Source: Bacteroidota bacterium (GTDB taxonomy: Bacteria > Bacteroidota > Bacteroidia > Bacteroidales > JACABE01). From it: a stretch of DNA of 40,215 nt. The first letter of the stretch is position 1; every line of letters starts with the position of its first letter. Both the position numbers and the translations under genes were made by a program. Positions 16,205 to 19,410 of the stretch are shown in pieces. The notes below the pieces were generated by a model, which made no database searches, had not been told where the DNA came from, and was given only the letters and a program-made list of their open reading frames with translations. The DNA lies in NCBI GenBank assembly GCA_013377005.1, contig JACABE010000019.1, positions 1 through 40,215 on the forward strand, in the 5' to 3' direction.

Positions 16205-16288
16205 TACTTTTACAAAGTAAATACACTCATTTATATACATCTGTATTTGTATTTTGCCTGTGTTTAATAGCTGCTAATACCATAAATA

Positions 16289-16503
16289 ATTCATTTTGAG
16301 TATTGAACGGAACAACTATATGCCAAAGTTAATTCACTTTGGGCATTGAGCGGAACAACTATATGTCATTTCGATTTCACTTTGAGTATTGAGCGGAACA
16401 ACTATATACCATTTCGATTCCACTTTGGGCATTGAACGATTCAATTATATATCAAAGTGATTTCATTTTGGGTATTCAGTACTTTAACTATATCTTATTC
16501 GCA
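16289..16503. repeat. five tandem 43-bp repeats
   Basis: Exact 43-bp periodicity over five units: 16289-16331, 16332-16374, 16375-16417, 16418-16460 and 16461-16503. A typical unit begins TTTCACTTTGAGTATTGAGC and continues GGAACAACTATAT plus a variable 10-nt end. Units 1-3 are most alike; units 4 and 5 are degenerate. Unit ends alternate between CAAAGT-type (units 1 and 4) and CATTTCGA-type (units 2 and 3). The CAAAGT ends form inverted repeats with the start of the next unit (CCAAAGT 16323-16329 with ACTTTGG 16336-16342). No open reading frame is carried. It occupies most of the 524-bp gap after pyrI, which otherwise holds the terminator and the 44-bp repeat. Confidence 0.85.
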
Positions 16504-16555
16504 ATGAGAGATTATAAATATTATTTAGTTTCAGTCTAAAAAATGTATATATTTG

Positions 16556-16599
16556 TTAAATAATTGTATTTTTGTCATTCCGAACGGAGTGAGGAATCT
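16556..16599 (+). repeat. 44-bp dispersed repeat, copy 1, with promoter-like element
   Basis: Identical over all 44 bp to 18007-18050. It contains TATTTTTG (16567-16574), a full TAnnTTTG match, then a segment starting GTCATTCCGAACGGAGTGAG. A 5-bp ATTCC/GGAAT inverted pair and CCGAACGG are inside. It ends 34 bp before the start codon of the next gene. Confidence 0.85.
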
Positions 16600-16633
16600 G
16601 TATAATAACACTCAGTTTTGTAGGACAAGTAAA

Positions 16634-17827
16634 ATGAATATTAAAAAAGCCATATTATTTTTCATATTCTCTTTTTGGGGATTAATTTCCAATGGACAAA
16701 TTATTGGACCCAATCTGGTACAAAATCCTTCTTTCGAGGATTATTATCAATGCCCTCCTTACTGTGTTACTGGTAATTTGAATTATTGTAAAAACTGGTT
16801 TTCAGGTCATGGAGTAAATGGTTCAAGTGATTATTTTAATTCATGTTCCTTAGATTTAAATTGTGTTCTTGCTATTAATATTCAACCACCAAGAACGGGA
16901 AACGGAATGGCTGCTATTGCTTTATATGCTGGATATGAATATAGGGAATACTTAATGGATGAACTTTCTGATAGTTTGAAAAGGAATAAATTATATTGTG
17001 CTAAGTTTTACACATCACTTTCAAACTTTAGTAGTGGTGCTATCGAAAATATTGGTATGTATTTTTCAACAGACACTCTATTTAATTTTGCTACATACGG
17101 TTTACTTTTAAAACAACCTCAGATTGAAAATAATAAAGGAATAATCATGGATACTTTAAATTGGGTTAAAGTTAGTGGAAGTTTCATTGCAAATGGCAAT
17201 GAAAAGTATTTTGTAATTGGTAATTTTAGAGATAATAATCATACTAATTATATCGATGTTTTCTTTGGAGCCACTATACCATATTATTTTTTTGACGATG
17301 TTTCTGTTTGTGAATGTGAAAATTTAAAACCTAAATTTAATAAAGACACAACCTTGTGTTTCGGGCAGCAATTATTATTAAAAGCAAACATACCCAAAGA
17401 AGTGGATAGTGTAAACTATACCTGGCAAGATAGCAGCAAAAACAGTACTTTTCTGGTAACACAGCCCGGTACCTATTGGGTAAGTGCATATATAGAAGAT
17501 TATAAAATAACGGTATGCGATAGCATAACTGTTAGTTATGCAGATTGCACAATACCTACACTATGGATACCCAATAGCTTTACACCCAACGGTGATGGAC
17601 TAAATGATAAGTTTGAGTATGCCAATGCAGATAGCTTTATAATAAAAACCTATATTTACAACCGCTGGGGGCAAATGGTATTTGAAGGTGAAAATACTAA
17701 TTTTTGGGATGGCACATTTAAAGGCAAGATAGTTCCATTAGGCGTTTATGCCTATACAATAGAAGCTTTGGATAAAAGGAGCAATGAAAAGAAAGTGTAT
17801 AGTGGGAGGGTAACGGTGGTACAATAA
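16634..17827 (+). CDS. secreted protein with T9SS type B (gliding-associated, CHU_C) sorting domain
   Basis: 397 aa. The signal peptide is residues 1-22 (MNIKKAILFF...SNGQ). Residues about 25-235 resemble a carbohydrate-binding-like module: 'LVQNPSFEDY' at the start and 'FFDDVSVCEC' at the end are typical of Bacteroidota jelly-roll domains. An Ig-like segment (about 240-305, 'CFGQQLLLKA...PGTYWVSAY') precedes the type B sorting domain at about 313-397 (PNSFTPNGDGLNDKF, YNRWGQMVFEG, NFWDGTFKGK, LGVYAYTIEA). The ATG at 16634 is preferred over in-frame starts such as 16553, because that extension only translates the 44-bp repeat (giving VIPNGVRNL) and would push the signal peptide inward. The ligand is unknown. 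Confidence 0.85.
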   Translation: MNIKKAILFFIFSFWGLISNGQIIGPNLVQNPSFEDYYQCPPYCVTGNLNYCKNWFSGHGVNGSSDYFNSCSLDLNCVLAINIQPPRTGNGMAAIALYAGYEYREYLMDELSDSLKRNKLYCAKFYTSLSNFSSGAIENIGMYFSTDTLFNFATYGLLLKQPQIENNKGIIMDTLNWVKVSGSFIANGNEKYFVIGNFRDNNHTNYIDVFFGATIPYYFFDDVSVCECENLKPKFNKDTTLCFGQQLLLKANIPKEVDSVNYTWQDSSKNSTFLVTQPGTYWVSAYIEDYKITVCDSITVSYADCTIPTLWIPNSFTPNGDGLNDKFEYANADSFIIKTYIYNRWGQMVFEGENTNFWDGTFKGKIVPLGVYAYTIEALDKRSNEKKVYSGRVTVVQ

Positions 17828-17862
17828 CCTCACCTAAATCCTCTCCAAAGGAGAGGACTTAA
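17826..17862 (+). repeat. hairpin repeat, left copy of an inverted pair
   Basis: It contains the perfect hairpin CCTCTCC-AAA-GGAGAGG (17840-17856). It starts on the last two bases of the preceding stop codon. Its flanks (AACCTCACCTAAAT, ACTTAA) match the reverse complement of the copy at 17946-17980. Confidence 0.75.
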
Positions 17863-17945
17863 GCAACAAGAAATAAAGGAAATAACAAATTTGACTTTTT
17901 ATACTCTTTAAATAATGAAACAAATAATACAAACTAACACCCAGT

Positions 17946-17980
17946 CAAAAGCCTCCTCTTCGGGGAGGTTTGGTGGGGTT
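17946..17980 (-). repeat. hairpin repeat, right copy of an inverted pair
   Basis: The reverse complement reads AACCCCACCAAACCTCCCCG and onward, aligning with the left copy along its full length. Hairpin CCTCCTC-TTC-GGGGAGG (17952-17968) keeps the same 7-bp stem (one G-T pair) and 3-nt loop. About 83 bp of non-coding AT-rich DNA separate the copies. Confidence 0.75.
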
Positions 17981-18006
17981 ACTTTATTAAAAAATGTTTA
18001 CTATAA

Positions 18007-18050
18007 TTAAATAATTGTATTTTTGTCATTCCGAACGGAGTGAGGAATCT
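18007..18050 (+). repeat. 44-bp dispersed repeat, copy 2, with promoter-like element
   Basis: Exact copy of 16556-16599. TATTTTTG is at 18018-18025. The repeat ends 23 bp before the start codon of the first barrel gene, so the TAnnTTTG element may drive that gene. Confidence 0.85.
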
Positions 18051-18073
18051 ATAAAACTATAATATTTTACAAC

Positions 18074-18739
18074 ATGAAAATTAAATTAATTATTTTACTT
18101 CTTATCTTAAGCAGTAGCCTTTCTTATTCGCAAATTATAAAAGGAATAGGCATCAAAAGCGGATTTACATTATCAAATCAATATTGGGAGGATACTAAAT
18201 TTAGCTACGACTATAATTTTGTTACCACACCGGGCTATTACGAAGCCATTACCATTGATTTTATCAGTAAAGAGTATTGGGAACTCTCAGCCGATCTGGG
18301 TATTTATCAGAGTGGAAGTAAATCAGAAATAAGTCCGTTTTCTGGCTATACATCTGAAACGTATGGGGAGTTTAATTTTAAATTTGGCTTTATTACGTTA
18401 AGCCCTGTTGCAAAGTTTAAAATTCCGATAAATTCTTTTACGCCTTATCTGTTGCTTGCTCCCCGTTTTGATTACTACAATGCTGATGTAAGCAATAAAT
18501 TTGCAAATTCATTTCAATCAACTATTCGCAAACCTATATGGGGTTTTACTGTTGGCGAAGGTGTTGCATATAAAATTAAAAACTTCAGCCTGTTTGCCGA
18601 ATATCAATTCTTTTACAGTTTTAATTATTTAATGGACGAACCGGCAACGTATCCCAATTTTTACGTAAGCAGAGATAAAGTTAAAACCAACACCCATATA
18701 ATTAGCTTGGGATTAAAATATCATTTTACCAAAGATTAA
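18074..18739 (+). CDS. outer-membrane beta-barrel protein, first tandem paralogue
   Basis: 221 aa. The signal peptide ends at about residue 20 (SLSYSQ). The rest alternates polar and hydrophobic residues in strands: 'GIGIKSGFTLSNQYW', 'SLFAEYQFFYSFNYL', ending 'THIISLGLKYHF'. This fits a small porin-like barrel of about eight strands. The terminal aromatic residue lies four residues from the end (YHFTKD). The next gene is a paralogue of identical length that starts 5 bp after this stop, so the two form a duplicated pair in one transcript. Cargo or function cannot be read from the sequence. Confidence 0.8.
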   Translation: MKIKLIILLLILSSSLSYSQIIKGIGIKSGFTLSNQYWEDTKFSYDYNFVTTPGYYEAITIDFISKEYWELSADLGIYQSGSKSEISPFSGYTSETYGEFNFKFGFITLSPVAKFKIPINSFTPYLLLAPRFDYYNADVSNKFANSFQSTIRKPIWGFTVGEGVAYKIKNFSLFAEYQFFYSFNYLMDEPATYPNFYVSRDKVKTNTHIISLGLKYHFTKD

Positions 18740-18744
18740 AACAG

Positions 18745-19410
18745 ATGAAAACTAAATTAATTATTTTACTTCTAATCGTAAGCAGTAGCTTTTCTTATTC
18801 GCAAATTGTAAAAAGCATAGGCATCAAAAGCGGAATTTCACTTTCAAACCAAGATTGGGTTCATTCTTTATATAGTTATAACCGAAACTTTAATTTAATA
18901 CCTGGTATTTACGAAGCTATTACCATAGATTTTATTTCTAAAAAGCATTGGGAATTATCTGCTGAAATAGGGTATTACCAAAGCAATAGCAAAAACGATT
19001 TAAATATTTATTCAATCAATATTAGCGAAGTTACTCCCAGCGATAATTTGTGTTTTGGTTTTATTAGTTTTAGTCCGGTACTTAAGTTAAAAACACAACT
19101 TAAATCGTTTACACCCTATTTACTCTTAGCACCACGATTGGATTGTTACGCTGCTGATTTTAGCAATGATAATGCAAATTCTTTTAAAAATGATATTCAA
19201 AAGAGCATTTGGGGCTTTACTATTGGTGAAGGTGTTGCATATAAAATTAAAAACTTCAGCCTGTTTGCTGAATATCAATTCTTATATAGTTTCAATTATT
19301 TAATTGACCAGCCTGCAGTCTATCAAACAGCACTTTTAGAAAGAGACAGAGTAAAAACCAACACGCATCTAATAAGCATCGGGTTAAAATATCATTTTGT
19401 TAAAGAATAA
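18745..19410 (+). CDS. outer-membrane beta-barrel protein, second tandem paralogue
   Basis: 221 aa, the same length as the preceding gene and collinear with it along its whole length. The signal peptide is MKTKLIILLLIVSSSFSYSQ, the barrel has 'SIGIKSGISLSNQDW', and it ends 'THLISIGLKYHFVKE'. The central loop region (about residues 75-100) differs most, as expected for surface loops. A 41-nt block (19228-19268) is identical in DNA to 18557-18597, although the flanking coding sequence is clearly diverged. Its stop lies only 10 bp from the stop of the convergent sulfatase-like gene, with no terminator visible between them. Confidence 0.8.
   Translation: MKTKLIILLLIVSSSFSYSQIVKSIGIKSGISLSNQDWVHSLYSYNRNFNLIPGIYEAITIDFISKKHWELSAEIGYYQSNSKNDLNIYSINISEVTPSDNLCFGFISFSPVLKLKTQLKSFTPYLLLAPRLDCYAADFSNDNANSFKNDIQKSIWGFTIGEGVAYKIKNFSLFAEYQFLYSFNYLIDQPAVYQTALLERDRVKTNTHLISIGLKYHFVKE

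Follow-up and report, generated by a model that had tools for sequence, protein, structure and literature searches.

The analysed window, the whole 40,215-nt stretch, carries two exact copies of a 44-bp repeat on its forward strand, each lying shortly before a gene (Table 1). The repeat ends 34 bp before the ATG at 16634 (copy 1) and 23 bp before the ATG at 18074 (copy 2); both the coordinates and these distances, first reported in an earlier note on this DNA, were confirmed. Identity covers exactly 44 bp with no extension on either side, and a looser 69-bp match (88%) encloses this core. Of the two halves of the repeat, the palindromic one of 26 bp is found twice against 0.00 expected from dinucleotide shuffles of the window, and the AT-rich one of 19 bp is weaker when taken alone, with two occurrences at up to 3 mismatches where 0.31 would be expected and 4 of 100 shuffles giving at least two. 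Direct 30-mers occurring twice in the window number 27, of which 15 belong to the 44-bp repeat and 12 to the tandem gene pair behind copy 2 (18557/19228); no other direct repeat of 30 bp or longer was found there. As an observation, the 44-bp repeat is real.

The product of the gene behind copy 1 contains a T9SS type B (CHU_C) sorting domain (PF13585, E 1.8e-16; TIGR04131, E 3.6e-13), in line with the secreted or outer-membrane protein that had been proposed behind each copy. For copy 2 that description is weaker: the gene has no family match of its own and its tandem duplicate has a weak OMP_b-brl match below the curated cut-off, so the name 'outer-membrane-type' is tentative. The 43-bp tandem repeats that lie upstream of copy 1 were not found, at up to 3 mismatches, in the relatives G001 to G004; elsewhere in the genome (C67:11805-11879) a related array of the 43-bp type precedes a different gene, whose product starts with an apparent signal peptide, and the stretch read there contains no 44-bp unit.

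Table 1. Features around the two repeat copies, in coordinates of the window
Feature	Position	Strand	Remark
43-bp tandem repeats	16288..16476	+	4.4 copies, 78% matches; upstream of leader copy 1
Leader copy 1, exact 44-bp repeat	16556..16599	+	looser match 16537-16605
TATTTTTG, candidate -7 box of a housekeeping promoter, copy 1	16567..16574	+	predicted start ~16579
26-bp palindromic dispersed repeat, first arm, copy 1	16574..16599	+	
Second arm of the palindrome doublet, decayed, copy 1	16600..16629	+	best preserved in contig C36
T9SS type B (CHU_C) surface-protein gene	16634..17827	+	
Signal peptide to NPSFE	16634-16738	+	
Variable jelly-roll-like domain	16739-17317	+	
C-terminal part	17318-17827	+	
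152-bp repeat after the surface-protein gene	17828..17979	+	ends ...CCTCTTCGGGGAGGTTTGGTGGGGT
Leader copy 2, exact 44-bp repeat	18007..18050	+	looser match 17988-18056
TATTTTTG, candidate box of copy 2	18018..18025	+	predicted start ~18030
Outer-membrane-type gene (name tentative) behind leader copy 2	18074..18739	+	
Tandem duplicate of the outer-membrane-type gene	18745..19410	+	66% protein identity

Copies of the repeat and the reach of its two halves

At up to three mismatches the 26-bp half has six copies in the 3.69-Mb draft genome, and TA[TC]TTTTG stands directly before all six, an arrangement (TAnnTTTG box directly in front of the 26-bp palindromic repeat) that we call the joined unit. 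Four of the six, the two window copies and those on contigs C36 and C1, have a visible downstream gene, and each of the four points toward a start codon. The distances are 22-38 bp if the first ATG is taken for C36, which lies 22 bp from the repeat (its next ATG lies at 43 bp); the C1 copy is 38 bp from its ATG. Three of these four recipients belong to one gene family. The copies on C25 and C89 stop 13 nt further on, at contig ends, with their downstream genes beyond the assembly. These two contig ends have exactly 55 nt in common, which looks like the word length of the assembler, and because the exact repeat of 44 nt is shorter than such a word, the window copies should be anchored by unique flanks. 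The draft state of the assembly and the two contig-edge copies are the points in favour of an assembly artefact or a chance repeat, an explanation that we regard as extremely improbable, given that shuffling predicts no copies of the 26-bp half and that the joined unit recurs in a second genome, G001. Across the order, sampled at one genome per species, the joined unit was found in two of 394 genomes (393 of a first scan and the same-genus G003, scanned separately), both of one genus, at eight places, six here and two in G001. At six of the eight a downstream gene is visible: five times a T9SS type B (CHU_C) paralog and once the outer-membrane-type gene at 18074.

The box in all joined copies has the TAnnTTTG form of the Bacteroidota housekeeping promoter, reading TATTTTTG in seven of eight and TACTTTTG in one. 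Such promoters also have an upstream TTG 17-23 bp before the -7 box; a TTG at this distance from TAnnTTTG was found in none of the eight. TAnnTTTG is enriched before genes in the ~0.16 Mb of the genome that was examined (all of C11, C50, and stretches of C25, C89, C36 and C1), which contains 80 genes whose free upstream DNA is 60 bp or longer. Within 120 bp upstream, 37 of the 80 carry the box on the coding strand and 14 on the opposite one, and mononucleotide shuffles give it in 8.6%. The accessible part of a study of F. psychrophilum gives TAnnTTTG as the sigma-A -7 box, at position -12 to -5 (PMC9723704), and from that position starts are predicted as in Table 1, inside the palindrome. Judged by its letters and placement, TATTTTTG is plausible as an active promoter. 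Three loci (L015, L016, L019) contain a longer common sequence of the type ...GGTTTTTTTGTTAAAAAATATTGAAGTGAATTAAATTATTGTATATTTG, which is another repeated TAnnTTTG-containing stretch of this genome.

The palindromic half is a dispersed repeat, as the earlier note had surmised: it is present in 13 of the 59 genomes of the first sample, this genome included, and abuts TAnnTTTG on contigs titled as several phyla. For 12 relatives we listed 80 palindrome places, or 78 after merging copies identical over 25 bp on both sides, and TAnnTTT abuts the palindrome at 3 of the 78, all in G002, and is absent from 75. A promoter half in most copies, expected of a mobile promoter, is thus found only in the window's own genome. 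Among the relatives' 55 evaluable intergenic copies, placed against simple ATG ORFs and not the output of a gene caller, 29 point toward a co-directional start and 26 toward a converging end; the gene start lies within 60 bp in 3 of the former, the gene end in 8 of the latter. A wider contig scan for TAnnTTTG plus the repeat takes in one place of G001 and two of G002, and the window's own genome may be missing from it. It found 41 matches, on 40 stretches: 16 facing co-directional starts, 18 facing converging ends, 3 inside ORFs and 4 without a downstream ORF, with 2 starts (one of them that of the same-genus G001 gene) and 8 converging ends within 60 bp. Taken as a whole, the palindrome shows no preference for gene starts, which is the outcome that the earlier note had itself named as telling against its mobile promoter. 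All four visible copies of this genome lie near a start codon and are oriented toward it, and no such bias is seen in the relatives or in the wider scan; the suggestion that the promoter half travels with the repeat is not supported by these counts.

One alternative is an autonomous mobile promoter, a discrete element of TAnnTTTG and palindrome that would insert before genes and drive their transcription. Consistent with it are the four upstream contexts among the six own copies (window copy 1, or C11a, with C1; window copy 2, or C11b, with C89; C36; C25), the left homology borders near -40 in several comparisons, and the one unrelated recipient gene. The fixed ends expected of such an element were not seen, however: left borders differ between copy pairs and two right borders are hidden by contig ends, the +38 border of the C25 and C89 copies being merely the end of the contig. 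In C36 the end of another gene, with its final codons and stop, falls within the ~25 bp that precede the box; the product of this gene has a T9SS type A sorting-domain match reaching residue 209 of 212. This, again, does not look like a fixed end. In the upstream regions of homologs in relatives (n=12; compared as letters), ATTAAATAATT occurs in 3 and ATTAAATAA in 6. Part of the common AT-rich half thus resembles the 3' end of an adjacent gene that came along with the leader, and borders made by recombination would for that reason fit better than those of a transposable unit. No clean empty site was found around pyrB-pyrI, a pair present in G001 to G004 with a different visible next gene in G001, G002 and G004. 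With the joined unit in so few genomes of the order and five of its six visible recipients in one gene family, we think an autonomous mobile promoter unlikely, and it was abandoned as the main reading because the promoter half rarely accompanies the palindrome in relatives and the palindrome has no bias toward gene starts.

The palindrome could alternatively be kept by selection on its sequence as a conserved 5'-UTR hairpin RNA, serving as a stability or attenuation element. Its doublet does fold (-22.0 kcal/mol for a 51-nt stretch of C36 and -17.5 for G001 C248, as raw energies), and the arms are recognisable in five copies. On the other side, pairing-preserving change on both strands of the stem affects 1 of 19 consensus pairs, the covariation term (+1.28) is unfavourable, copy 1 has a decayed second arm and copy 2 no recognisable one, and no Rfam family was found at the 44-bp repeat copies at the gathering threshold. 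Such an RNA element is very unlikely in our estimation, and we set it aside on account of the weak covariation.

Near-identical forms of the 26-bp palindrome GTCATTCCGAACGNAGTGAGGAATCT occur on contigs titled Bacteroidota, Nitrosomonas, FCPU426, Firestonebacteria, Ruminococcus, Clostridiales, Chloroflexi, Armatimonadetes and Sulfotelmatobacter, where binning errors may play a part; on viral contigs the palindrome is found in 7 stretches and AATTGTATTTTTGTCNTTCC in 2. The GTAG or CGTC tag of REP/BIME repeats is missing, the repeat reading, by eye, GTCATTCC...GGAATCT. Five Y1_Tnp (IS200-like) genes of equal score and without stops lie on C12, C23, C36 and C56, one of them directly after the core-bearing C36 gene, and two further Y1_Tnp loci, on C8 and C21, are broken by TAG. 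Their presence raised the idea of an IS200-type carrier for the repeat, which we did not adopt.

Mosaic structure of the surface-protein genes

The genes behind window copy 1 and behind the C36 and C1 copies are paralogs. Six near-full-length members of the family are present in the genome: three with the joined unit, two (C50a and C50b) without it, and one, C1:25, that is cut off before its leader and has, in the part that can be seen, the same signal-peptide DNA as the C50 genes. In G001 the homologs C345 and C248 have the unit, and among those examined C35, C287, C370, C3 and C368 lack it. Nine genes were compared over four segments (leader, signal peptide, central domain, C-part). Among the five core-bearing genes (10 pairs), identity is 70-87% in the leader and 48-60% in the central domain, and core and non-core leaders are 23-43% identical (20 pairs). 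The two G001 genes C345 and C248 are 87% identical in the leader, 89% in the signal peptide, 48% in the central domain and 61% in the C-part; of the nine genes those nearest to C248 are C370 and C368, at 64 and 63% in the central domain and 80 and 83% in the C-part, with leaders at 43 and 33%. Leader, central domain and C-part group the genes in conflicting ways, as is expected of a recombining paralog family.

Near-identical ends around a diverged middle are found in C50a and C50b, which are identical from 304 nt upstream of the ATG to 100 nt past it, drop to 54% identity in the centre, and then share 474 identical nt to the contig end. One near-identical end block is found in the window gene and C1:25, whose proteins are 96% identical in the C-part and 45% in the N part, and in G001 C345 and C248, where it is the 5' block. 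These comparisons must be tempered by the draft assembly, in which the long identical C50 stretches are possibly mis-joined, although mis-joining alone would hardly yield near-identical C-parts on several different central domains. The high leader identity could be due in part to purifying selection.

On trees of 23 rows, the core label takes 5 changes for five genes on both the N-part and the C-part tree, of which at least 3 and at least 4, respectively, are forced by well-supported branches; this labelling enters C1:25 as core-less with its leader unseen, the leader of G003 C140 is likewise unseen, and G002 C9 has only ~69 bp of upstream sequence. With shuffled labels the mean is 4.6-4.7 changes; the core-bearing genes therefore show no clustering on these trees. 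Unless the trees are seriously in error, the scatter contradicts plain vertical duplication, by which each gene copy would have inherited its leader and selection would have kept it, with no shuffling. The homology between window copy 1 and the C1 copy, which runs from about -154 before GTCATT through +507 and so reaches far beyond the leader on its upstream side and enters the gene on the other, is what plain duplication gives and counts against shuffling, and the leader goes with the gene family in two species. Nevertheless, the groupings of leader, central domain and C-part conflict within G001, the C50 pair joins identical ends to a diverged middle, and copy 2 is not on a family member. 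We consider unshuffled descent quite unlikely, and simple duplication was dropped because the trees and the module identities conflict.

A structural model of the variable domain (mean pLDDT 83.6, pTM 0.67) matches CBM4 carbohydrate-binding modules (4bj0_A, TM 0.66 by target length, E 9.7e-6) and also K1, a cleaved adhesin domain from Kgp (4itc, 0.58); the lowest E-values go to multi-domain MAM-Ig proteins, whose superposition is poor. The model suggests that the variable domain may bind a ligand.

Origin of the leader copies

The 44-bp repeat is probably the core of a promoter-leader module that has been shuffled by homologous recombination among T9SS type B paralogs and has once captured an unrelated gene. 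This module would comprise the TAnnTTTG box, the palindrome doublet in the 5' UTR and, in some pairs, signal-peptide codons, and ordinary homologous recombination between paralogs, as gene conversion or unequal crossing-over, would exchange three blocks separately: leader with signal peptide, the variable ligand-binding-like central domain, and the T9SS C-terminal part. Directly observed are the copy count, the association with one gene family, the mosaic structure and the absence of the unit from the examined homologous genes in relatives; promoter activity of TATTTTTG, recombination of RecA type and the direction and order of events are inferred. On the best reading 'mobile promoter' is too strong a term, the unit being the 5' block of a recombining family with one escape among the visible copies. 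If this is correct, surface diversification in this lineage, which its relatives place in Bacteroidota, may proceed through a carbohydrate-binding-like domain that varies between recombining end blocks, one of which carries promoter and leader, and repeats at gene fronts may mimic mobile promoters while being parts of a shuffled gene family.

As far as the accessible parts of the reports extend, the closest known kind is the recombination of paralogs through conserved blocks in the esaG and tipC immunity genes of firmicute type VII secretion, which recombine via conserved homology blocks and give conflicting segment trees (PMC9484751), as the genes here do. Unlike those immunity genes, the present family consists of T9SS surface proteins spread over several contigs, and its common 5' block includes a promoter-leader and appears to have reached an unrelated gene. 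In Porphyromonas gingivalis, the Kgp adhesin domains, FimA and RagAB are described as surface-protein mosaics formed by domain rearrangement and exchange (PMC5266723); these too are Bacteroidota surface proteins, and the variable domain here structurally matches the cleaved adhesin domains of Kgp. That variation, unlike the present one, is between strains and in other protein families, and the abstract mentions neither a promoter-leader module nor capture by an unrelated gene. REP/BIME repeats with their RAYTs, in the accessible portion of that account (PMC3733652), resemble the present repeat as short palindromes, in doublets at some places and dispersed in many genomes, and differ from it in that it begins with neither GTAG nor CGTC and has six copies in this genome. 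Among the matches listed in open-licence literature (titles and abstract starts), none concerned the 44-bp repeat or recombination in the CHU_C family.

The gene behind copy 2 and the neighbouring repeats

Homologs of the outer-membrane-type gene are found in G001, G003 and G004, and none was found in G002 at E up to 1e-8. The joined unit is absent from nine homolog loci in G001, G003 and G004 (up to 4 substitutions in 20 nt); the G001 homolog on C212 closely follows another gene, and the first copy in G003 has its own TACTTTTG. This comparison of sequences makes the gene at 18074 a candidate for capture by the leader, once and in one lineage, and offers a possible example of an unrelated gene that has acquired the promoter of another family. 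A single event would have joined the leader, beside the 152-bp repeat, to this gene, which would now be transcribed from it. We give little credence to the further idea that the promoter-leader serves as an exchangeable module for expression, in which recombination between the direct repeats at 16556 and 18007 would delete the surface-protein gene and leave the outer-membrane-type gene directly behind the upstream copy, so that the locus might switch between two envelope states.

Leader copy 2 shortly follows the 152-bp repeat, and the C89 copy is preceded by its right-hand part. The 32-bp right end of this repeat occurs 8 times in the genome, in 6 of them together with the left end. The repeat as a whole is dispersed, and its ends are imperfect inverted copies of each other (CCTCACCTAAATCCTCTCC... 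/ ...GGAGGTTTGGTGGGGT); elsewhere it is found with its left end on C1, C27, C36, C50 and C67 and in partial form on C89 and C17. It lies just after a CHU_C reading frame on C11, C1, C50 and C67, and on C27 and C50 it is followed by apparent T9SS gene fragments.
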